A stretch of DNA of 47,133 nt from a bacterium (GTDB lineage: Bacteria > Oederibacteriota > Muellerivitia > Muellerivitales > Muellerivitaceae). Location of the stretch: the NCBI GenBank assembly GCA_035549195.1, contig DASZRK010000052.1, positions 1 to 47,133 of the forward strand. The letters are read 5' to 3'. Below the pieces are notes generated by a model. That model searched no databases and was not told where the DNA came from. It saw only the letters and a program-made list of their open reading frames with translations. Position numbers and translations under genes: made by a program. This document shows positions 19,117 to 45,058 of this stretch, piece after piece. The stretch's first letter is position 1, and each line of letters starts with the position of its first letter.

Positions 19117-19232
19117 CTCTTATCGCGAGTGGCGGAGGGACAGGCCCTTTGATGCCACGGCAACCGGCCCGAAAGGGCGCCAGGTGCCAAATCCTGCTCC
19201 GGGAAAGATCAAGACCCGGGGAAAGATGAGAG
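19117..19232 (+). promoter_or_regulatory. SAM-I (S-box) riboswitch aptamer
   Basis: The sequence carries the S-box hallmarks in order: P1 strand CTCTTATC, GGCGGAGGGA, the GCCC...TGATGCC...GGCAACC core with the kink-turn region, CCAGGTGCCAAATCC, and the closing GATGAGAG. P1 pairs 19117-19124 with 19225-19232 (one G-U). Downstream, GAGATGGAA (19230-19238) can pair with TTCCATCTC (19256-19264), an antiterminator that uses part of P1 and part of the terminator. High SAM should stabilise P1 and switch the transcript off. It controls the second threonine synthase-like gene. Confidence 0.93.
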
Positions 19233-19327: not shown

Positions 19328-20557
19328 ATGAGCTACGTGAAAGCCTTGAAATGCCGGGAGTGCGGCCAGGAATACGAGAAGGCCGCCAAATACGTCTGCG
19401 AGTTCTGCTTCGGCCCCCTCGAGGCGGCCTACGACTACGACAAGATCAAGAAGGACGTGACCCGGGAGAAGATCTCCTCCCGGTCGCTGAACATCTGGCG
19501 TTATCGCGAGTTCCTGCCCGTGGAAGGGGACAAGTTCAACAGCCTGGGCGAAGGTTTCACGCCGCTCTTGAAGGCCGACCGCCTGGGCGAGGAATTGGGT
19601 CTTTCAAAGCTCTATATCAAGAATGACTGCGCCAACCCGACCCATTCCTTCAAGGACCGCGTCGTTTCAGTGGCCTCGACCCGGGCTTTGGAACTGGGCT
19701 TCGACACCCTCGCCTGCGCTTCCACCGGCAACCTGGCCAACGCGGTTTCCGCCTATGGGGCCAAGGGCGGCATGAAGCGTTTCGTGTTCATCCCTTCCAA
19801 CCTGGAGCCCAGCAAGGTGACGGCCTCCCTCATCTACGATCCCAACCTCATCGGGGTGAACGGCAACTACGACGATGTGAACCGCCTCTGCAGCGAGATC
19901 GCGGGGAAGTACAAATGGGCCTTTGTGAACATCAACATGAGGCCCTATTACGCCGAGGGGTCCAAGACCCTTGGGTTCGAGGTGGCCGAGCAATTGGGAT
20001 GGAAGTCGCCCGAGCAGGTGGTGGTGCCGGTGGCCTCCGGATCGCTCCTGACCAAGATCTGGAAGGGGACCCAGGAATTCGCCAAGACGGGATTGATCGA
20101 GGCCCGGCCCATGCGGGTTTTCGGGGCCCAGGCCGAAGGATGTTCACCCGTGACCACGGCCTACAAGGCCAAGACGGACACCTTCCGTCCTGTGAAACCC
20201 AACACCATCGCCAAATCCCTGGCCATCGGGAATCCGGCCGACGGCTTCTATGCGCTCAAGACCATCGCCGAGTCCAACGGCGGGGCCGAAATGGTCAACG
20301 ATGAGGAGATCGTCGAGGGGATCAAGCTATTGGCCCGCACGGAAGGCATCTTTGCCGAGACCGCGGGCGGCGTGACCATCGGCTGTTTGAAGAAATTGGC
20401 CGAGTCCGGGGCGCTGGACCCGGACAAGGTGACCGTGGCCTTCATTACCGGAACGGGGCTGAAGACCCAGGAAGCGGTCATGGGCCATTTGAAGAAGCAC
20501 GAGGTCATCCAGCCCAACCTGGCCGCTTTCGAGGCCACCCAGTTGGTCACGGCCTGA
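19328..20557 (+). CDS. Threonine synthase-like PLP enzyme with zinc ribbon, SAM-regulated
   Basis: This 409-residue fold-type II enzyme has an N-terminal zinc ribbon (Cys9, Cys12, Cys24, Cys27). The PLP Lys109 is in THSFKDRVV, the phosphate loop is ASTGNLANAVSAYGAKGG, and FITGTGLKTQE is near the end. By sequence it belongs with threonine synthases that use O-phosphohomoserine. The SAM-I riboswitch in its leader implies a methionine-related task, and a normal thrC already sits in the hom operon. I infer it may make homocysteine from O-phosphohomoserine and a sulfur donor, perhaps the carrier protein encoded at 27185. An ordinary ThrC under methionine control is the alternative. AGGAG precedes ATG 19328. 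Confidence 0.88.
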   Translation: MSYVKALKCRECGQEYEKAAKYVCEFCFGPLEAAYDYDKIKKDVTREKISSRSLNIWRYREFLPVEGDKFNSLGEGFTPLLKADRLGEELGLSKLYIKNDCANPTHSFKDRVVSVASTRALELGFDTLACASTGNLANAVSAYGAKGGMKRFVFIPSNLEPSKVTASLIYDPNLIGVNGNYDDVNRLCSEIAGKYKWAFVNINMRPYYAEGSKTLGFEVAEQLGWKSPEQVVVPVASGSLLTKIWKGTQEFAKTGLIEARPMRVFGAQAEGCSPVTTAYKAKTDTFRPVKPNTIAKSLAIGNPADGFYALKTIAESNGGAEMVNDEEIVEGIKLLARTEGIFAETAGGVTIGCLKKLAESGALDPDKVTVAFITGTGLKTQEAVMGHLKKHEVIQPNLAAFEATQLVTA

Positions 20558-34515: not shown

Positions 34516-34544
34516 TTGACATTTCGGCCGCCTGAAAGTATTTT
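34516..34544 (+). promoter_or_regulatory. Promoter of the tandem leader RNAs
   Basis: A perfect TTGACA (34516-34521), a 17-bp spacer and TATTTT (34539-34544) start 7 bases after the E1 stop. The transcript would begin near 34551, a few bases before leader RNA copy A. Confidence 0.75.
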
Positions 34545-34557
34545 TTCTAAACAACGC

Positions 34558-34622
34558 GGGCTTTAAGTTCCAACTTGCTCCGGCGTGGTTCCCAAAAGGA
34601 CCGAACAGCGAGCTAAAGCGGT
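34558..34622 (+). ncRNA. Unrecognised structured leader RNA, copy A
   Basis: Core in order: GGGCTTTA, an 11-base segment ending CCAACTT, GCTC, CGGC, a hairpin (GGTTCC/GGACC around CAAAA), GAACAG, then CGAGCTAAAGCGGT. CTTTA (34561-34565) can pair with TAAAG (34614-34618), and GCTC (34577-34580) with GAGC (34610-34613), giving two stacked helices with an 11-base bulge on one side. The 3' AAAGCGGT can instead pair over 8 bp with ACCGCTTT in the terminator. Copies B and C share this plan. I know no riboswitch class with this consensus. Confidence 0.75.
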
Positions 34623-34650
34623 AGATGCGATTTAGAGAGAAATCCCTAAA

Positions 34651-34683
34651 CCCGGACCGCTTTAAGAGCGGCCCGGGTTTTTT
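34651..34683 (+). terminator. Intrinsic terminator of leader RNA A
   Basis: CCCGG-A-CCGCT (34651-34661) pairs with AGCGG-C-CCGGG (34667-34677); a T-run (34678-34683) follows. ACCGCTTT at 34656-34663 is also the partner of AAAGCGGT at 34615-34622, so terminator and antiterminator exclude each other. A GATTT/AAATC hairpin lies between aptamer and terminator. Confidence 0.88.
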
Positions 34684-34720: not shown

Positions 34721-34775
34721 CCCTGGTGAGGCTTTAATTGGGCGGTGTTGAATCGCCCCGAAAAACCATAAAAAC

Positions 34776-34838
34776 AAGGGTTTTTCGCCAACTTGCCCCG
34801 GCCAGCACTCGAAAGAGAAAACAGGGGGCTAAAGCGGC
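34776..34838 (+). ncRNA. Unrecognised structured leader RNA, copy B
   Basis: Core: AAGGGTTTTTCG, CCAACTT, GCCCC, GGCC, a CTC-GAAA-GAG hairpin, AACAG, GGGGGCTAAAGCGGC. GCCCC (34795-34799) pairs with GGGGC (34825-34829), replacing the GCTC/GAGC pairs of copy A; TTT pairs with AAA of CTAAAG. Just upstream, GAAAAACC (34760-34767) pairs with GGTTTTTC (34779-34786), an alternative hairpin that would hide the first strand of the core. It is transcribed downstream of copy A and directly precedes the peroxiredoxin. Confidence 0.72.
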
Positions 34839-34863
34839 GCCTGCTTTCCAGAATTCCGGAAAC

Positions 34864-34896
34864 CCGAGCCGCCTCAAAGGTGGCCCGGTTTTTTTT
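34864..34896 (+). terminator. Intrinsic terminator of leader RNA B
   Basis: CCG-A-GCCGCC (34864-34873) pairs with GGTGGC-C-CGG (34879-34888), with one G-U and one A-C mismatch, and eight T residues follow. GCCGC (34868-34872) can instead pair with GCGGC (34834-34838) of the aptamer end. The matching pairs in copy A are ACCGC/GCGGT, so this alternative helix covaries. Confidence 0.88.
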
Positions 34897-34930: not shown

Positions 34931-35572
34931 ATGGCATTGCGACTTGGAGATATCGCGCCGGATTTCACGCAGGAGTCGAGCGAAGGGCCTGTCCATTTTT
35001 ATGATTGGGCCGGAAAGAACTGGGTGGTGTTGTTCTCCCACCCGGCGGATTTCACGCCTGTATGCACCACCGAACTGGGTGAGACCGCCCGCTTGAAGCC
35101 CGAGTTCGAGAAGCGCGGGGCCAAGGTGATCGCCCTGTCGGTCGATACGGCGGAGAACCACAAGGGCTGGATCCCGGACATCAACGAGACCCAGAACACC
35201 CGGGTGAATTTCCCCATCCTGGCCGACCACGACCATAAGGTTTCTCTACTCTACGACCTCATCCACCCCAATTCCCTGGCCAACGCCACAGTGCGGTCCG
35301 TCTTCGTCATCGACCCGGACAAAAAGGTGAGGGCCCTTATCACTTATCCGGCCAGCACGGGCCGCAATTTCAACGAGATCCTGCGGGTCATCGATTCCCT
35401 CCAGTTGACGGACAACCATAAGGTGGCCACCCCGGTCAATTGGAAGTACGGGGAGGACGTGGTCATCGTGCCGGCCTTGAAGGATGAGGCCGAGATCCGG
35501 CAGCGTTTCCCGTTGGGATTCAAGGCGGTTCGGCCTTACCTGCGGTTGACGCCCCAGCCGAACAAGAAGTGA
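34931..35572 (+). CDS. 1-Cys peroxiredoxin (Prx6-type)
   Basis: This 213-residue cytoplasmic peroxidase has the peroxidatic Cys45 in HPADFTPVCTTE and no other cysteine, so it belongs to the 1-Cys Prx6 group with the long C-terminal arm (VATPVNWKYGEDVVIVPA). It reduces peroxides with a thiol partner. ATG 34931 has AGGAGG six bases upstream; the frame is open back into leader B but that part is RNA. Two tandem leader RNAs with terminators control it. A known relative, LsfA of Pseudomonas, is induced by sulfate limitation, which suits the neighbouring sulfate genes. Confidence 0.94.
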   Translation: MALRLGDIAPDFTQESSEGPVHFYDWAGKNWVVLFSHPADFTPVCTTELGETARLKPEFEKRGAKVIALSVDTAENHKGWIPDINETQNTRVNFPILADHDHKVSLLYDLIHPNSLANATVRSVFVIDPDKKVRALITYPASTGRNFNEILRVIDSLQLTDNHKVATPVNWKYGEDVVIVPALKDEAEIRQRFPLGFKAVRPYLRLTPQPNKK

Positions 35573-35641
35573 GGGCTCTTTAGAGGGGGGAATCCGGACA
35601 GGAAGGGAGGTGGGAGAGGACAATTAAAGCAGTTGAACGGC

Positions 35642-35718
35642 GGGATTTAATGACCAACTTGCCCCGGCCGGTTCCGGACCGATGTTCTCGGCGCGGACGA
35701 ACAGGGGACTAAAGCGGT
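35642..35718 (+). ncRNA. Unrecognised structured leader RNA, copy C
   Basis: Core: GGGATTTA, an 11-base segment ending CCAACTT, GCCCC, GGCC, a longer hairpin (GTTCCG with CGGAC, T bulged as in copy A), GAACAG, GGGGACTAAAGCGGT. TTTA (35646-35649) pairs with TAAA (35710-35713); CCCC (35662-35665) with GGGG (35704-35707). Copies A and C align without gaps from GGG to the second helix. No clear promoter lies in the 69 bases after the peroxiredoxin stop, so read-through from that gene is possible. Confidence 0.73.
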
Positions 35719-35743
35719 GTTGCGATTATTGTGTTCCACATAA

Positions 35744-35779
35744 TCCCGACCCGCTGATGAAGCGGGGCCGGGATTTTTT
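35744..35779 (+). terminator. Intrinsic terminator of leader RNA C
   Basis: TCCCG (35744-35748) and CCCGCT (35750-35755) pair with CGGGA (35769-35773) and AGCGGG (35761-35766) around a small internal loop; six T residues follow. A separate hairpin (GATTA-TTGTG/CACA-TAATC, 35724-35745) lies just before it. AGCGG of the aptamer end can pair with CCGCT of the terminator arm. Confidence 0.85.
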
Positions 35780-35841: not shown

Positions 35842-36996
35842 ATGAAAAAGCTATACGTCTATTCGCTGGTCTTACTGGCGGGACTGTTCCTGTCGGTGGG
35901 AAGGGTGGGTGCCGTGGAGGAGCCCAAGCAGGATGCCGATTTCGAGGATACGCCCGCGGAGGTCACGGTCTCCGATATCGAAGGCCTGAACAACCGGATC
36001 AATGACCTGGCGAAGTCGGCCCGGGTCAATGTGCTGTTGCAGGCGCAATACGCGAATTCCGGCGTGCAGTCCCTCCAACCGAAGGGGTTCAAGACCGCAA
36101 CGGGTGGTGCTTCCTACAACGACCTCTTCCTGGGTCGCCGGGCGGAAGTGAGCTTCTCGGGGGACCTGGATAACAAACAGGTCGCCTACCGGGTCCAGTA
36201 TGATTTCCTGGGCTCGACCAGCACCAAGGCGGGTGTGGCTACGGGTTCGCAGTTGAAGGACTACTGGGTTCGGTTGTCCTACATCCCCTTCGCGGACATC
36301 CAGATCGGGCAGCAGCGTTACGCCCAAGGCCTGGAGGCGCGGACTTCCTCGGCCGACCTGGATTTCGCCGATAGCGCCCTGGTGACGAGCGCTGTTGAGG
36401 ACCGCAGGGACCTGGCCATCCAGGTCCAGTCCAGCAAAGTGCCCTTGGGTCCGTTGAAGCTGGAATATGCCGTCGCCCTGGTCCAGGGGTCCGGTCAGAA
36501 CACGCCGGACAACAACGACAACAAGGACCTGGCCGGGAGGATCGGATTGACCTACGGGGAAGCCGACTGGAAGGTCTTTGTCGGGGCCTCGGGTTATGAC
36601 GGATGGGAAAGCACCGTGGCGGCCCATTCCGGGGACCGTAATGCCTTCGGCCTGGAAGGCCGGGTCAATGTTGGCGGTTTGAAGCTCCAGGGTGAGTACA
36701 TCCAAGCCCAATTGGAACCGGGGAACAATTACAACCCCTCCGGCACAGCCCTGTCCCGTCCCCAAGGATGGTACGTTAGCGCGAATTACCGGATCGAGGA
36801 TTGGCGGCCTGGACTCCGTGCGGAATCCTACACCGTGGACTCGACCGTCGGTTCGGCCAACAACCTAAATAATGACGTCCTGACGGCGGGTTTGGACTGG
36901 TTCCATGGGCATGACGACGTGCGTTTGAGCGTCAACTTCGAGGAGCATTTCGCTCAGTACGAACAGGTCATCGGCCAGGTTCAGGTCAAGATCTAA
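35842..36996 (+). CDS. Porin of the phosphate-selective OprO/OprP type
   Basis: This 384-residue protein has a signal peptide ([19 protein letters not shown]), a short helical segment ([20 protein letters not shown], about 35-55) that may form a coiled-coil stalk, and an antiparallel barrel with alternating strands ([24 protein letters not shown], by pattern; [17 protein letters not shown]). It would form an anion-selective outer-membrane pore. ATG 35842 follows GGGGTAAG. Its place between leader RNA C and the sulfate-binding protein suggests it brings sulfate through the outer membrane. Confidence 0.82.
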
Positions 36997-37045
36997 CAAC
37001 CCGCACGGGCCAACGTCCGAGCATCAAAGATCAAGGAGAAGAAAA

Positions 37046-38065
37046 ATGAAAAAGCAATGGATCAAGCGGTTCCTGGCTGTGGCTGTCTTTTGGGTTTCGA
37101 TTTCAAGCGGGTTGGCTTTTGGAGCGGAGGGGAGCGTTCACCTCTTGAACGTGTCCTATGACCCGACCCGGGAGCTTTACCAGGCCTTCAACACGGCCTT
37201 CGCCAAGCACTGGAAGGCCGAGACGGGGCAGGATGTCACGGTGGACCAGTCCCATGGCGGTTCGGGCAAGCAGGCCCGGGCGGTCATCGACGGCCTGGAG
37301 GCGGACGTCGTCACCCTGGCCCTGGCCTCGGACATCGATGCGATCGTGGACAAGTCGAAGCTCATCGGGGAGGACTGGCAGTCTCGTCTTTCCTACAACA
37401 GCACTCCCTACACCTCCACCATTGTGCTGCTGGTGAGGTTCGGGAATCCCAAGGGCATCCATGACTGGGGCGATCTGGTGAAGCCGGGGATCTCGGTCAT
37501 CACCCCCAACCCGAAGACCTCGGGTGGGGCCCGCTGGAACTTCCTGGCGGCTTGGGGTTACGCATTGAAGAAGTATGGGAGCGAGGAAAAGGCCCGGGAA
37601 TTTGTCACGAAGCTCTACAAGAACGTCCCGGTGCTGGATTCGGGGGCACGGGGCTCCACAACCACCTTCGTGGAACGGGGGATCGGGGACGTCCTCATCT
37701 CCTGGGAAAACGAGGCCTACCTGGCGGTCAACGAATTGGGAAAGGGTAAGTTCGAGATCGTCAATCCCTCGGTAAGCATCCTGGCCGAGCCTCCGGTGGC
37801 GGTAGTGGACAAGAACGCCGAAAAGCACGGCACCACCAAAGTGGCGGAAGCCTACCTGAAATACCTTTACTCGGATGAGGGACAGGAGATCGCGGCCAAG
37901 AACTATTACCGGCCGCGCTCGAAGTCGGTCCTGGCCCGTTATTCGTCCACCTTCCCCAAGTTGAATCTCTTCACCATCAATAAGGTGTTCGGTGGATGGA
38001 AGAAGACGCAAGCGGCTTATTTCGGGGACGGGGGCGTGTTCGACCAGATCTACCAGCTTAAATAA
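37046..38065 (+). CDS. sbp: Periplasmic sulfate-binding protein
   Basis: This 339-residue exported solute-binding protein has a signal peptide ([18 protein letters not shown]) and the strong Sbp/CysP signatures [63 protein letters not shown] and [13 protein letters not shown]. It delivers sulfate (or thiosulfate) to CysTWA. AAGGAG precedes ATG 37046. A strong terminator at 38110 separates it from the rest of the cluster, which would give more binding protein than transporter. Confidence 0.95.
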
Positions 38066-38109
38066 TTCCGGACCAATGGGAGGGTCTCTCCCCCTCTTTT
38101 CCGGGTCGA

Positions 38110-38147
38110 CGCGGGGAACGTGTCAGGGACGTTTCCCGCGATTTTTT
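38110..38147 (+). terminator. Rho-independent terminator after sbp
   Basis: A 12-bp stem, CGCGGGGAACGT (38110-38121) with ACGTTTCCCGCG (38129-38140, one G-U), has a 7-base loop and six T residues (38142-38147). It should make most transcripts end after sbp, leaving read-through or an unseen promoter for the HPr-like gene and permeases. Confidence 0.9.
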
Positions 38148-38205
38148 CAAAGGGGCTTGCGGCGTTTCGGCCCTAGCTCCACTTGGGATCGTAGTGTAAT
38201 CGATC

Positions 38206-38535
38206 ATGGAATGGACAGTTCCTGAACAACACGAACCGATATGGGTTCAAGGTATCCCCGTGAAGATCATTGAAGAGATCCCGATCCTACACCGATTGGG
38301 AATGCATTTGAGGGCCGGGGCAGAGCTGGTGCGGGTCACCAGCCGTTTCAAGAGCCGCATTTGGGTCACCGCCGGCGGCCACACAGTGGAAGCCAAAAGC
38401 CTCCTGGGACTCTTAACCCTTGGGGCCATTTATGGTACGTTACTCGAGTTTTCGGCCGAGGGGGAGGATGCGTCCCAGGCCATCCAAGCCATCCGTTCGT
38501 TGCTCAAGGAATGGGAAAACAAGACCGAATTATGA
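38206..38535 (+). CDS. HPr-like phosphocarrier domain protein in the sulfate operon
   Basis: This 109-residue protein has an N-terminal extension of about 25 residues and an HPr fold. The phospho-His site reads LGMHLRAGAEL (His34), where GLHARPA is usual: the Arg is kept and the Pro is lost. Ser65 in AKSLLGLLTLGA corresponds to the regulatory Ser46 of HPr, with the same 31-residue spacing. It has no other PTS gene nearby and overlaps cysT by four bases (ATGA). I infer it regulates the transporter or another enzyme through phosphorylation; a sugar-transport HPr is less likely in this setting. Confidence 0.8.
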   Translation: MEWTVPEQHEPIWVQGIPVKIIEEIPILHRLGMHLRAGAELVRVTSRFKSRIWVTAGGHTVEAKSLLGLLTLGAIYGTLLEFSAEGEDASQAIQAIRSLLKEWENKTEL

Positions 38536-39362
38536 AATCCTTCAACAACACCGGGGTCCTTCCGGGTTTTGGACCGACCCTGGGCTTTACCCTCGCCTAC
38601 CTAGGCCTTATCGTCCTCATTCCCTTGGGAGCCATGGTCCTGAAGACCACGGACCTGACCTGGGGACAATTCCTCCAGACTGTGACCGAACCCCGTGCGG
38701 TGGCCTCCTACAAACTGACCTTCAGCGCTTCTTTCGTGGGGGCTTTGATCAATTCCGTCTTTGGCGTGATCGTCGCTTGGGTCCTCGTCCGTTATGAGTT
38801 CCCCGGCAAACGGGTCATGGACGCCCTTGTGGACCTGCCTTTCGCCCTGCCGACAGCCGTGGCAGGGATCACCTTGACCGCCCTCTATGCGCCCAATGGA
38901 TGGATCGGAAGTCGGCTGGAACCTTTGGGGATCAAGGTGGCCTATACCCCTTTGGGGATCATCTTGGCCTTGACCTTCATCGGACTTCCTTTTGTGGTGC
39001 GGACCCTTCAACCGGTGCTGGAATCGCTGGATCCTGAGATGGAAAAGGCCGCGGTTTCCCTGGGAGCAAACCGTTGGTACACCATCCGTCGGGTCATCCT
39101 GCCCACGTTGGTCCCCGCCTGGATCACCGGTTTTTCGCTGGCTTTCGCCCGGGCCGTCGGCGAGTACGGATCGGTGGTCTTCATCGCGGGCAACATGCCC
39201 ATGAAGACCGAGATCACCCCGCTCTTGATCATCACGAAGCTGGAGCAGTACGACTACGTTGGCGCCACCTCCCTGGGGGTGGTCATGCTGGTCATCTCCT
39301 TTTTCTCCCTTTTGACCATCAATTGGCTTCAATCCCGCGCCGGTAATTACCGGACCCATTGA
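38532..39362 (+). CDS. cysT: Sulfate ABC transporter permease CysT
   Basis: This 276-residue inner-membrane permease has about six helices. Its family marks are [24 protein letters not shown] (by pattern), [24 protein letters not shown], and the ATPase-coupling EAA loop [21 protein letters not shown], with the typical [12 protein letters not shown] after it. With CysW and CysA it imports sulfate/thiosulfate. The ATG overlaps the stop of the HPr-like gene, so the two proteins are translationally coupled. cysW follows 16 bases later. Confidence 0.95.
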
Positions 39363-39378
39363 GGAAAGGAAAGACGCC

Positions 39379-40287
39379 ATGCCCCAAGAGACGTTGATTG
39401 TCGTAGTGAGGGGAGACCGTCTCGGCGACCCCACCCGGGCCTTGACCGAGCCCCGTTTCGTCCGGTGGGGTTTGATCCTGTTGGCCCTCCTTTTCATGGG
39501 GCTCTTCCTGATCGTGCCATTGGCCCAGGTCTTCACGGCGGCGATGGCCAAGGGAGTGGATTATTATCTCGAGGCCATCCGGGAGCCGGTGGCTTTCGCG
39601 GCCATCCGGTTGACGTTGATCGCGGCCTTTTTCGCCGTCCTTTTCAACGGTCTTTTCGGCCTGGCATCGGCCTGGGCCATTACCAAGTTCCGGTTTCCCG
39701 GGAAAAGCTTGTTGATCACGCTCATCGACCTTCCCTTTACGGTCTCACCGGTCGTTTCGGGCCTGATCTACGTCCTTCTTTTCGGCCTTCAGGGGCTGAT
39801 GGGCCATTGGCTGAAGGACCACAATATCCAGATCATTTTCGCGGTGCCCGGAATCGTCCTGGCCACCATCTTCGTCACCTTTCCGTTCGTTTCCCGGGAA
39901 CTCATCCCCCTCATGCAGGAACAGGGGAGCGAGGAAGAGGAGGCCGCTTTGGTTCTTGGCGCCGGTGGGTGGCAGATTTTCTGGAAGGTGACGCTTCCCA
40001 ATATCCAATGGGGGCTCCTATACGGTGTCATCCTCTGCAATGCCCGTGCGATGGGGGAGTTCGGGGCCGTCTCTGTGGTATCCGGCCATGTACGGGGGAT
40101 GACCAACACCCTTCCGCTCCACGTTGAGATCCTCTACAACGAGTATAATTTCGCGGCGGCCTTCGCCGTGGCTTCCCTTCTCACCTTCCTCGCCATCCTG
40201 ACCTTGATCGCCAAGTCACTGGTGGGGGCCAAGTACGCCCTCGAGCGCGAACATTTGCCCGATGAGATCCATGGAGGGTTGGCATGA
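39379..40287 (+). CDS. cysW: Sulfate ABC transporter permease CysW
   Basis: This 302-residue membrane partner of CysT shows [39 protein letters not shown], and the EAA loop [22 protein letters not shown], with [15 protein letters not shown] after it, all typical of CysW. It has a long cytoplasmic N-terminus ([20 protein letters not shown]) before helix one. GAGGAAAGG precedes ATG 39379. Its stop overlaps the cysA start (ATGA). Confidence 0.95.
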
Positions 40288-41324
40288 GCATCGAAGTACG
40301 GGAGTTGAGCAAGACCTTCAACGGGTTCAAGGCCGTGAAAGGTGTGAGCGTTAAATTGGAGACCGGTTCCTTGACCGCCCTTTTGGGGCCTTCCGGATCC
40401 GGGAAAAGCACCCTTTTGCGCATGATCGCCGGGCTGGAGACCCCCGATTCGGGTGAGATCCACCTGACCGGACGGGAAGCCACATTTGCCTCGGCCAAGG
40501 AAAGGAACGTGGGCTTCGTCTTCCAGCATTACGCCCTTTTCAAGCACATGACGGTCTTTGAGAACATCGCTTTCGGCCTCAGGGTCCGGAAACAAGGGGA
40601 AAAAGAGATACGGGAGAGAGTCTATGACCTCCTCAACCTGATCCAATTGAAGGGCTATGAGAAAAGGTTCCCGGCCCAGTTGTCGGGAGGCCAGCGCCAG
40701 CGTGTGGCCGTGGCGCGGGCCTTGGCACCGCGTCCGGAGGTCCTTCTGCTGGACGAGCCGTTCGGGGCACTGGACGCCAAGGTACGGGAGGAATTACGGG
40801 AATGGATCCTGAAACTCCATGAGGAGACCAATGTCACGACCCTCTTCGTGACCCATGACCAGCAGGAAGCCATGGAGGTGGCCAGTCGGATCCTCATCAT
40901 GAACCATGGGGTCATCGAACAGGACGGGACGCCCATCGAGATCTTCGACAAGCCCTCGACCCATTTCATCGCCCAGTTCGTGGGGGAGACCAACTACATC
41001 GATACGGAAGTGGCCGAAAAGGGATTGGCGGTTTGGGGCCCCTTCCGGTTCTCGGTCAGTCCTTCTTTGCCGCCCAAACAGAAGATCCGGATCTATTTTC
41101 GGCCCAATGACGTTTACGTGACGGCCCAGTTCGAGACCCTGCAGGTGCGGGCCAAGATCGCCAAGAGCCGCTTCAAGGGAACGGTCATCGAGTACCAGTT
41201 GGATATCGGGGGTGATAAGAGGATCTTCGCCCAGGTCCCCAAGGGGGTCGCCCTGGCCAGCGGGTTCAAGGACGGTCAGGATGTTTATGCCGCTATCACG
41301 GCTTTCCACGTATTCCCCCTCTAG
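40284..41324 (+). CDS. cysA: Sulfate ABC transporter ATPase CysA
   Basis: This 346-residue ATP-binding subunit has Walker [10 protein letters not shown], the Q-loop [14 protein letters not shown], signature [15 protein letters not shown], Walker [16 protein letters not shown], and the H-loop [12 protein letters not shown]-terminal TOBE-like regulatory domain (about 235-346, with [13 protein letters not shown] before it) is usual for CysA. It powers sulfate uptake through CysT and CysW. The 113-base gap after it, before cysD, holds a GCCCGC/GCGGGC inverted repeat without a clear T-run. Confidence 0.96.
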
Positions 41325-41437
41325 GCGGTTGAGGAAAACCACGGGAAAGTGTATTTTTGGGGTCCTTTTTGGCCCGCTCCCTGGAAACGCCCCTGCGGGC
41401 GACCGAATAATGGCCTGAAAACAACAGGAAGATCGAC

Positions 41438-42361
41438 ATGACGACGACCCTCTCCAATCGAACCATCTCCCACCTGCGCCAACTGGAAGCGGAAAGCATC
41501 CATATCATCCGCGAGGTGGCGGCCGAGTTCAAAAACCCCGTCATGCTCTATTCGGTGGGGAAGGACTCCTCCTGCATGGTCCGCCTCGCGCAGAAGGCCT
41601 TCCACCCCGGCAAGATCCCTTTTCCCCTGATGCATGTGGATACGGGCTACAAGTTCCCCGAGATGTACGAGTTCCGCGACAAGTTCATCGCCGATATCGG
41701 CGCCAAGCTCTTCGTGGAGCGCAACGAGAAGGCCATCGCCGAGGGTTCCAGCCCCTTCAAATACGGGGTCCAGAAATGCTGCGGTCTTTTAAAGACCCAG
41801 GGCCTGCTGGACGGGCTCACCAAGCACGGTTTTGACGCCGCCTTCGGGGGTGCCCGCCGCGAGGAGGAAAAGTCCAGGGCCAAGGAGCGGGTCTATTCTT
41901 TCCGGGATGCTTTCGGCCAATGGGACCCCAAGAACCAGCGGCCCGAACTTTGGGACCTCTATAACTCCAAGATCAACGAAGGGGAGTCCATCCGGGTCTT
42001 TCCCTTGTCCAACTGGACCGAACTGGATATCTGGCTCTATATCGAGATGGAAAAGATCCCTGTGGTCCCCATTTACTTCACCCATACCCGCAAGATCATC
42101 AAGCGCAACAACCTGCTCATCCCCTGGGTCTCCCACATCCCCATCCTGGAAGGGGACGAGATCAAGGAGATGCGGGTCCGCTTTCGGTCCTTGGGCTGCA
42201 TGTCCTGCACGGGAGCGGTCCAGAACGAGAAGGAAGTCCACGACCTTCGGGGCATCATCGAGGACCTCATCCAGACGCGGAAGAGCGAGCGGGAGAACCG
42301 CATCATCGACCACGGCTCCGACAGCTCCATGGAACAGAAGAAGAAGGAGGGTTACTTTTGA
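41438..42361 (+). CDS. cysD: Sulfate adenylyltransferase subunit 2
   Basis: This 307-residue PP-loop enzyme makes adenosine 5'-phosphosulfate from ATP and sulfate together with CysN. Hallmarks are [22 protein letters not shown] (by pattern), [54 protein letters not shown] and [14 protein letters not shown]. Length is normal. AGGAAG lies 7 bases before ATG 41438. It overlaps cysN by four bases. Confidence 0.97.
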
Positions 42362-43650
42362 CCCTCAGTGCCAAGACCCTCCTCAATTACGAACAGATGG
42401 ACATGCTGCGCTTTTCGACGGCGGGGAGCGTGGACGACGGGAAATCGACCCTGATCGGACGCTTGCTCTACGATTCCCGTGGTGTCTTTGAGGATCAGCT
42501 TGACGCCATCCGCAAGACCACCCAGCGCAAGGGCGGTGAGGACATCGATTTCGCCCTCATCACCGACGGCCTGGCCGCCGAGCGGGAGCAAGGCATCACC
42601 ATCGACGTGGCTTACCGCTATTTCGCCACCGCCAAGCGCAAGTTCATCATCGCCGATACCCCGGGCCACGAGCAGTACACCCGGAACATGGTCACGGGGG
42701 CCTCGACGGCGGACCTGGCCATCATCCTCATCGACGCCCGCAACGGGGTCATGATCCAATCCAAACGGCACGGCTATATCGCCAAGCTCCTGGGCATTCC
42801 CCACATCGTGGTGGCGGTCAACAAGATGGACCTGGTGGATTTCAAACAGGACGTTTTCGAGCGGATCAAGAAGGATTACACGGATTTCTTTTCCCAATTG
42901 GTGGCCGATAACCCGGCGGCCCCGAGCCTCGCCAACCTGGAATTCATCCCCATCTCGGCCCTCAAAGGGGACAACGTCACCACGAAGAGCCCCAACATGC
43001 CCTGGTTCACGGGAAAACCCCTCCTGGAGTTGCTCGAGACCATCGAGATCTCCAAGGACCGCAACCTGGACGATTTCCGTTTCCCCGTCCAACTGGTGCT
43101 CAGGCCCAACCTGGATTACCGGGGATTCGCCGGAAAAGTGGCCTCGGGCATCGCCCAAAAGGGCAAGCCGGTCATTGCCCTGCCTTCCGGCTTCACCTCG
43201 ACCCTGAAGGCCATCGACTCCTTCGAGGGGGAATCGGACGAGGCCTTCCCCCCCATGAGCGTGACGCTCCGTTTGGCCGATGAGATCGATATTTCCCGGG
43301 GCGACATGATCTGCTATCCGGAGAACAAACCCACGGTCGCCAACCGCTTCCAGGCCAACCTTTGTTGGATGGTCAAGGAACCCATGGCCCTGAAGAAGAA
43401 ATACGTCCTGAAATTGGCCGCGACCGAGGTGAAGGCCATGATCTCGGGCATCCAATGGGTGCGGGACATGAAAACGCTGGAGAAGAACCCGGCCTCCGAA
43501 TTGAACCTCAACGATATCGCCTTGGTCGAGGTGCAGACCTTGAAACCCATCTGTTTCGATCCCTATACCCGCAACCGGGCCACGGGGAGCTTCATCCTCA
43601 TCGATGAGCTCAACAACAACACCGTCGCCGCGGGGATGATCGTTGGCTAA
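42358..43650 (+). CDS. cysN: Sulfate adenylyltransferase subunit 1 (GTPase)
   Basis: This 430-residue EF-Tu-like GTPase drives APS synthesis by CysD. The G motifs are visible: [39 protein letters not shown]. It ends after the beta-barrel domains and has no C-terminal APS kinase (CysC) domain, and neither APS/PAPS reductase nor sulfite reductase is in the window. TTG 42358 overlaps the cysD stop (TTGA) after a GGAGGG. The next gene overlaps its end by 8 bases. Confidence 0.96.
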
Positions 43651-45058
43651 GGACGGGATCCGGTCCTCTCCGGAGACCCTGTTGTGGATCATCGCCGGTT
43701 TCGCCTTCCTCTATTGGCTCGCCGGATTTCCACTGCTCTTTGACCGGTTGGTCTGTCCCTTCCAAGTCGCCCAGGGAGAAGCCGCCAATGTCGAATTCGG
43801 CCGGATCCTGGCCCGGGGGGAGAACCTCTATTTCGACCCGGCCCATGGACCATTCCTCTACCCGGCCTACCCTCCCTTGTTCCCCCTCCTTCTTTGCTTT
43901 TTATCCAAACTTCTGTCCGCCCCTTTTTTTCCGGGGAGGCTCTTGGCATTGTCGGGCTATCTGGCTTGCGGCGGTCTTCTCCTGGCCTGGGGTTGGCGGC
44001 GTTGGGACAAGGCTTGGTGTGCCGCCTTGCTTTTCCTCTTTTGGGTCTCTCCCACCGGGCGGGTCTGGGGGACGATGGGAAGGATGGACACCCTTCTTCT
44101 GGCGGTGGAATTCGGCGCATTCCTCCTTCTTTACGGTGACGATGAAAAGAAAGGACGCAGGCTTCCACTGGCCGCCGCCTTATCGGCCTTGGCCCTTCTT
44201 CTCAAACAGAGCGCGCTGATCCTCTTGATGGCCTATAGCGTTTCGGCCATCCGGAAAGGGGATTATCGGGTCCTGGCACGGTTCCTTGCCTTTTCCCTCG
44301 TTCCGGTGGCGGCCGCCTATTTGTTGTTGCAATGGTCGAGCGGAGGCTGGTTCTTCTTCTGGAACTTCCGGGCACTGCCCCTGACCTTCCATTGGTCGGG
44401 CTTTTTTTACTATCTCCGCGCCGCCGTGGTCCCCGAAGAAGGGTGGTTGTTCCTGGCGGTCGGTCTCACACTGATCCTCCGTGACTTGCGTCCCCTGCTG
44501 AAGTGGCAGCTCTTTTTCTCTTTCTTGCTCTTGTTGGCCCTGGGGAGGGAAGGCGCCGCCGAAAATTACCTCTTGGAACCCTGGCTTTACGGGATCTTCG
44601 CCCTGGGGGAAGGGTGGGGAAGGGTCGTTGGGAAGTCAAAGGCCCCATCTTGGGCCGGATGGACGGTGGCCTGTCTTTTGCTCGTGGGTTTGCTCTTGTT
44701 CCTGGTCCGTCCCTTGCCGCGGTTGCCGAGCCGTGAAGAGATGGCCATGAAATCATCCGCCCTTTCGATCTACCGTCAGCCCGGAGAACACCTGGCCTTG
44801 GATGCGGACCTTCCTTTGATGGCCGGGAAGAAGGTCTGGATCATGCCCATGGAATACACGGCCATGGTGGAGTCGGGGAAGTTGGACATGGGGCCTTTTT
44901 TGAAGGCTATTCGAGAAAGGAAGTTCGCGACCATCGAACTTTATGACCTGGACCGGCAATATCTTCTTCCTGCGAAGGCGGTGGAAGCCGTCGAGGCTTC
45001 CTACCAGGTCGCTTTCAAGGGATTCGGCCGTCGCTGGTACGTTCCCAGGGTCCGTTGA
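43643..45058 (+). CDS. Polytopic membrane protein, GT-C-type glycosyltransferase candidate
   Basis: This 471-residue protein has about nine to ten membrane helices and a soluble C-terminus (about 375-471). The first extracytoplasmic loop carries an acidic site (VAQGEAANVEFGRILARGENLY) followed by YPAYPPLFPLLL, as in many GT-C enzymes that use polyprenyl-linked sugars; WGTMGRMDTLLLAVEF is another typical patch. TTG 43643 overlaps cysN by 8 bases, so it is probably in the same transcript, although no sulfur role is evident. It could glycosylate a lipid or surface protein. The specific family is not assigned. Confidence 0.72.
   Translation: MAKDGIRSSPETLLWIIAGFAFLYWLAGFPLLFDRLVCPFQVAQGEAANVEFGRILARGENLYFDPAHGPFLYPAYPPLFPLLLCFLSKLLSAPFFPGRLLALSGYLACGGLLLAWGWRRWDKAWCAALLFLFWVSPTGRVWGTMGRMDTLLLAVEFGAFLLLYGDDEKKGRRLPLAAALSALALLLKQSALILLMAYSVSAIRKGDYRVLARFLAFSLVPVAAAYLLLQWSSGGWFFFWNFRALPLTFHWSGFFYYLRAAVVPEEGWLFLAVGLTLILRDLRPLLKWQLFFSFLLLLALGREGAAENYLLEPWLYGIFALGEGWGRVVGKSKAPSWAGWTVACLLLVGLLLFLVRPLPRLPSREEMAMKSSALSIYRQPGEHLALDADLPLMAGKKVWIMPMEYTAMVESGKLDMGPFLKAIRERKFATIELYDLDRQYLLPAKAVEAVEASYQVAFKGFGRRWYVPRVR

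Follow-up and report, generated by a model that had tools for sequence, protein, structure and literature searches.

Leader RNAs with a SAM-II/SAM-V-like pseudoknot and a predicted antiterminator-terminator switch upstream of peroxiredoxin and sulfate genes

The window (the whole stretch of DNA that was analysed, 47,133 nucleotides) belongs to a genome of 3.2 Mb in 80 contigs, whose closest relatives are found in candidate division FCPU426. It contains three leader RNAs, A (34554-34683), B (34723-34896) and C (35638-35779), each built of a conserved core that is followed by an intrinsic terminator. Copies A and B form a tandem pair upstream of a peroxiredoxin gene and copy C is located upstream of a sulfate operon. 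The sole promoter-like site that was found precedes copy A, with a predicted start 2-4 nt upstream of the first helix (P1) of this copy. The promoter-like site and the genes are:

34516..34544, forward strand: promoter-like site of copy A (TTGACA, 17 nt, TATTTT), 10/12 consensus positions, 0.7 expected by chance
34931..35572, forward strand: peroxiredoxin gene behind the tandem A-B pair
35842..43650, forward strand: operon-like run behind copy C, with genes for a porin, a sulfate-binding protein and an HPr-like protein, then cysT, cysW, cysA, cysD and cysN

The gene of the HPr-like protein (PF00381, 38206-38535) separates cysT from the gene of the sulfate-binding protein, and an ORF of 471 amino acids without an NCBIfam match at E 0.001 (43643-45058) is found immediately 3' of cysN. 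A SAM-I riboswitch (RF00162, 87 bits, 19117-19232) is located 15 kb upstream of the leader RNAs and in front of a threonine synthase-like gene (19328-20557); no other SAM-I match turned up in this genome.

An initial pattern search detected the motif of these leaders in 8 of 59 relatives. The covariance model R2 detected it in 11 of 45 genomes of the host's phylum, in 12 of 295 Elusimicrobia (a set that overlaps with the FCPU426 phylum set in 'Candidatus Obscuribacterium magneticum') and in 2 of 396 Acidobacteria, with a third acidobacterial case (L049) coming from a separate search; the covariance model R3 added one further genome, of another phylum, among 384 relatives. The RNA type is represented in no fewer than four bacterial phyla. 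In the host's own genome R2 and R3 find just three copies; the near-matches L004 and L005 were judged unlikely to be further copies, L005 being without the rest of the motif, and two other loci (L044 and L053), in which the third strand is absent, were taken as chance matches. At several loci the copies stand in tandem: in FCPU426 copy A occurs together with B or C, and there are pairs upstream of metY in L046 and L077 and of metK in L086. The genes downstream of the homologues include metK (TIGR01034, 562 bits), metH (twice, as partial genes), metX, metY and cysD, as well as genes for a DsrE-like protein, a TusA-like protein and ABC transporters.

One of the questions that these leaders raise regards the fold of the conserved core. 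The initial annotation described a core helix in which TTTA pairs with TAAA. This UUUA/UAAA helix had been built into model R2, and it was dropped because none of its pairs, which are uninformative, ever shows a double change; covariation backs a pseudoknot with a different P1 instead. An RNAalifold fold of the first 15 sequences was also set aside, its pairs being without covariation. Reading the homologues side by side, we saw co-variation between the strand 5' of G[A/G]GG[A/C]UUUAA and the strand that follows the 5' side of P2, and the strand pairs of P1 in the homologues are ACGC/GCGU, CGGC/GCCG, CGGU/ACCG, UGGC/GCCA, AGGC/GCCU, UUAU/AUAA and AAGC/GCUU. The general plan is an H-type pseudoknot with a covarying P1, a P2 with a bulged U, a third strand GNUUUAA, a P2a of 2 bp and, usually, a P3 hairpin followed by AACA. 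In the window, the elements are placed as follows:

34554..34621, forward strand: copy A aptamer
34554-34557 with 34583-34586, forward strand: copy A P1, ACGC with GCGT
34560-34566, forward strand: copy A third strand, GCTTTAA
34570-34571 with 34620-34621, forward strand: copy A P2a, CC with GG
34575-34581 with 34608-34613 and 34615-34616, forward strand: copy A P2, with bulged U 34614
34587-34602, forward strand: copy A P3 hairpin, followed by AACA at 34604-34607
34723..34837, forward strand: copy B aptamer
34723-34727 with 34801-34805, forward strand: copy B P1, CTGGT with GCCAG
34728-34737, forward strand: copy B third strand, GAGGCTTTAA
34740..34787, forward strand: two hairpins (34740-34758 and 34759-34787) inserted in L1 of copy B between the third strand and P2, -21.3 kcal/mol
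34788-34789 with 34836-34837, forward strand: copy B P2a, CC with GG
34793-34799 with 34824-34829 and 34831-34832, forward strand: copy B P2
35638..35717, forward strand: copy C aptamer
35638-35641 with 35667-35670, forward strand: copy C P1, CGGC with GCCG
35644-35650, forward strand: copy C third strand, GATTTAA
35654-35655 with 35716-35717, forward strand: copy C P2a, CC with GG
35659-35665 with the strand on either side of bulged U 35710, forward strand: copy C P2

The pseudoknot was scored on 35 distinct sequences that were trimmed to fixed pieces, with the variable linker and P3 removed, and their MAFFT alignment stayed ungapped. The trimming and the register were chosen manually, a sequence rule was used for the 5' strand of P1 and some rows were moved to another register once they had been inspected, which biases the figures in favour of the model: 90.8% of the cells are paired (82.5 when shuffled), the covariation score is 0.214 (shuffled 0.081) and 33 cells are changed on both sides (shuffled 8.6). 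Slid registers gave far lower values in every case. The double-sided changes fall on all four P1 pairs and on two P2 pairs, one of which turns from C-G to G-C in 6 rows, whilst one P2 position is mostly unpaired and a bulge seems to shift there. P1, which in its true form is not included in R2, has 144 of 160 pairs in the fixed register against 113.8 (sd 4.5) in shuffled sets, with 0 of 2000 shuffles as high; an earlier test with a free register gave a weak signal (4.33 vs 3.96; 4 of 500). Based on comparison among homologous sequences, P1 and part of P2, the contact bases, the antiterminator, the terminators and the gene context are shown to be shared, as predicted elements, by this RNA type.

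Copy B deserves separate attention. The peroxiredoxin-linked copies gave a first impression of being without P1, which was given up when the 5' strand of P1 was found upstream of a two-hairpin insertion. Read further upstream, the four peroxiredoxin-linked copies show GAGGCUUUAA and a matching P1 strand, parted from P2 by two stable hairpins; P1 is intact in three of the four and has one mismatch in the L028 copy. The insertion is found at the same place upstream of peroxiredoxin genes in L021, L025 and L028, and other copies have only a few nucleotides there. Since the two hairpins stand between the third strand and P2, the 5' end of copy B is at 34723, and the earlier extent of this copy, which had missed the true 5' end, was corrected.

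Another question is how such a core could act on the terminator that follows it. It had been proposed that the 3' end of the core is complementary to the 5' arm of the terminator, and this is found in all three copies. In copy A, AAAGCGGT (34615-34622) is complementary to ACCGCTTT (34656-34663) and the match even extends to 9 bp, and copies B and C have 5 bp each; in copy C both antiterminator strands enclose an inner hairpin, GATTAT...ATAATC.

34614..34664, forward strand: copy A antiterminator, TAAAGCGGT (34614-34622) with ACCGCTTTA (34656-34664), 9 nt, 100% complementary in the repeat search
34648..34683, forward strand: copy A intrinsic terminator and U tract, -21.9 kcal/mol
34834..34872, forward strand: copy B antiterminator, GCGGC (34834-34838) with GCCGC (34868-34872), 5 bp
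34859..34896, forward strand: copy B intrinsic terminator and U tract, -17.2 kcal/mol
35713..35755, forward strand: copy C antiterminator, AGCGG (35713-35717) with CCGCT (35751-35755), 5 bp
35742..35779, forward strand: copy C intrinsic terminator and U tract, -22.1 kcal/mol

The sequence CTAAAGCGG occurs three times in the window, each time inside copy A, B or C, where 0.24 occurrences are expected. With a simple automatic finder, 40 of 46 homologues were seen to have a terminator downstream, which in 38 cases is below -13 kcal/mol; the finder picked a wrong hairpin for L038 and detected none for six homologues. Among the 38 stable terminators, 28 have CCGC in the 5' arm; for unrelated terminators, taken from the same sequences and similar in GC content, the count is 6 of 40 (Fisher p ~2e-7, with homologues that are not independent). 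In 19 of 34 cases the nucleotide that follows GCGG pairs with the one that precedes CCGC (U-A 7, C-G 7, G-C 3, U-G 2), against 11.4 (sd 2.1) after shuffling and 0 of 5000 shuffles as high, a covariation that is to be read with the non-independence of the homologues and the terminators' own constraint in mind. CCGC is absent from the terminator of some homologues (L081, L085, L101). Both the conservation and the covariation of this complementarity support, at the sequence level, the earlier proposal that antiterminator and terminator are mutually exclusive, here across the 46 homologues, and folding agrees.

In folding of the growing transcript, the antiterminator helix precedes the emergence of the 3' arm of the terminator, with a top pair probability of 1.00 for A, 0.62 for B and 0.88 for C, and when the core is blocked the terminator probability is 1.00. 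The full-length, ligand-free copy A is balanced (0.48 to 0.52), which could fit a switch that decides during transcription. Full-length copies B and C without ligand favour the terminator. The predicted OFF logic, in which ligand-stabilised folding of the core would free the terminator, fits these results.

Which ligand would the core bind? The initial annotation proposed neither a ligand by name nor an RNA family. In SAM-II, conservation is complete at U10-12, U20, U21, G22, C23, G42, C43, U44 and A45-47; the sulfonium lies opposite U11 and U21, U44 contacts the adenine and A47 the methionine end, and the UUU is a third strand against UU:AA pairs and not a strand of a helix of its own (PMC3764141). 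The comparison that follows rests on this published base numbering. The corresponding UUU, UUG and UAAA are invariant in 35 of 35 rows, with search models that favoured these bases; the equivalent of C43 is kept in 34 of 35 rows, and that of C23-G42 is C-G in 27, G-C in 6 and unpaired in 2. The C-G pair beyond UU:AA is spaced by three nucleotides on both strands, like the C16-G50 pair of SAM-II (PMC12434664). The H-type pseudoknot, the GNUUUAA third strand and UUG...UAAA with the bulged U are as in SAM-II (RF00521, SAM_alpha, the metA element), and so are the terminators, the methionine and SAM genes, and the promoter start just upstream of P1, which is seen in SAM-II (PMC1273637) and predicted for copy A. 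Unlike SAM-II, which is mainly found in Proteobacteria, this RNA type occurs in FCPU426, Elusimicrobia and a few Acidobacteria, has sulfate assimilation genes as targets, carries a linker of 2-4 nt or the two-hairpin insertion between the third strand and P2, and usually has a P3 hairpin in L3, which is absent from SAM-II; P3 is variable and is lacking in L029, L081-L085 and L101.

SAM-V (RF01826) has P1, the third strand and P2, followed by a P3 stem-loop and A-minor adenines (PMC6061858). The pocket, the order P1, third strand, P2, P1, P3, A-rich strand and P2, and metY among the targets are shared with it, and most copies have, as SAM-V does, a hairpin and AACA or a close sequence before the 3' strand of P2. 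SAM-V occludes the ribosome site (Shine-Dalgarno), whereas the RNA type here is terminator-based. In SAM-V the aminoacyl group is contacted by A50, a base that A18 supports (PMC6061858); a clear difference is that the column equivalent to A18 is C in most rows here and A in four. Like the switch proposed here, SAM-I (RF00162) turns off the transcription of sulfur and methionine genes; its four-way-junction fold is unrelated to this pseudoknot.

No Rfam model gave a match to this RNA type in the loci and genomes scanned. Rfam scans at E up to 10 gave no family that bears on the motif in the window region or in 14 homologue loci, and scans at the gathering cut-off gave nothing in 19 more loci; no RF01826 match appeared in the window or these 33 loci, nor in 44 genomes, the controls being likewise silent. 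SAM_alpha exceeded its curated cut-off in 0 of the 44 genomes, and its matches at E up to 10 were discarded as noise that is also seen in 13 of 14 control genomes. In the literature searched, in which subscription journals are thinly covered, no description of this RNA type was found. As the Rfam models are silent and the architecture mixes features of both classes, we do not file it as SAM-II or as SAM-V; the best reading of the sequences is a newly recognised variant within the SAM-II/SAM-V group that probably works like SAM-II.

Each copy is very probably a pseudoknot riboswitch on the SAM-II/SAM-V plan joined to an intrinsic terminator, that is, a transcription-terminating OFF switch for SAM; the identity of the ligand, the direction of switching and the formation of the triplex are what we infer. 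When SAM is low, P2 and P2a would be unstable and the 3' strand AAAGCGG would pair with the 5' arm of the terminator (ACCGCTTT in A, GCCGC in B, CCGCT in C), leading to read-through. Binding of SAM in the triplex of P2, to which the third strand GNUUUAA, the bulged U and AAA belong, would hold UAAAGCGG in P2 and P2a, the terminator arm would stay free and transcription would stop. At high SAM the cell would switch off its peroxiredoxin along with the uptake and activation of sulfate, and relatives would do so with metK, metH, metX and metY too; feedback by SAM would lead one to expect a terminator switch upstream of metK, metX, metY and sulfate activation. Several points count against a SAM switch. 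The search models account in part for the invariance of the core, the A18 equivalent is usually C and the Rfam SAM models are silent; the antiterminator of copy B has only 5 bp and the ligand-free, full-length copies B and C are predicted to favour the terminator; and some homologues are without CCGC in the terminator or, in a few cases, without a detected terminator.

It is unlikely that these RNAs form a third branch of the SAM-II/SAM-V fold with an altered aminoacyl end, in which C for the A that backs the ligand-contacting A alters discrimination and a SAM-related compound or the SAM/SAH balance, instead of SAM alone, is read. Another reading, which keeps the pseudoknot and the OFF logic and replaces SAM by a related compound such as SAH, decarboxylated SAM or methylthioadenosine, draws on the C at the A18 equivalent and is improbable, as there is no variation in the SAM-II bases that face the sulfonium (the U pair), contact the adenine (a U) and contact the aminoacyl group (an A), and metK, metX, metY and sulfate activation are expected targets of SAM feedback. 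A regulatory protein or another RNA, instead of a small molecule, might bind the core and decide between antiterminator and terminator, and the conserved single-stranded blocks could serve as protein sites; a covarying P1, a bulged U and the exact bases and spacing of the SAM-II pocket are specific to a known small-molecule pocket and make this highly improbable. That termination is constitutive and short RNAs are the main product of the leaders, with a core complementarity that has no regulatory role, is scarcely credible: SAM-II leaders of Sinorhizobium meliloti do yield short riboswitch RNAs and no effect of SAM binding on its metA terminator was predicted (PMC9373788), but neither the enrichment of CCGC nor the covariation of the flanking base would be expected if terminators were constitutive.

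SAM-II and SAM-V have one pocket in common, with different helices and a different mode of control. The RNA type described here joins the P3 and A-rich strand of SAM-V with the P2a and terminator of SAM-II, and with this mixture in at least four phyla it bears on the relation of both known classes. If the SAM reading holds, a peroxiredoxin and the uptake and activation of sulfate are added to the targets of this kind of control, in a genome that also carries a SAM-I riboswitch 15 kb away. Since Rfam misses this RNA type, annotation of the sulfur regulons in these uncultured phyla is probably incomplete.

Some homologues stand apart from the general plan. In L086 (1501-1662) two divergent tandem copies lie upstream of metK, the second with a P2 of UUGUUC/GAAC and a very short loop. 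A short sub-branch in Elusimicrobia (L082, L084 and L088) has UUGG...CC in P2, is without P3 and lies upstream of genes for TPR-repeat proteins; its change from C-G to G-C in P2 adds covariation. In Acidobacteria (L049:4932-5219 and L076:1130-1417) the motif is located upstream of a gene for a 95 amino acid protein without a Pfam match, and a similar small protein is encoded behind the motif in L051.
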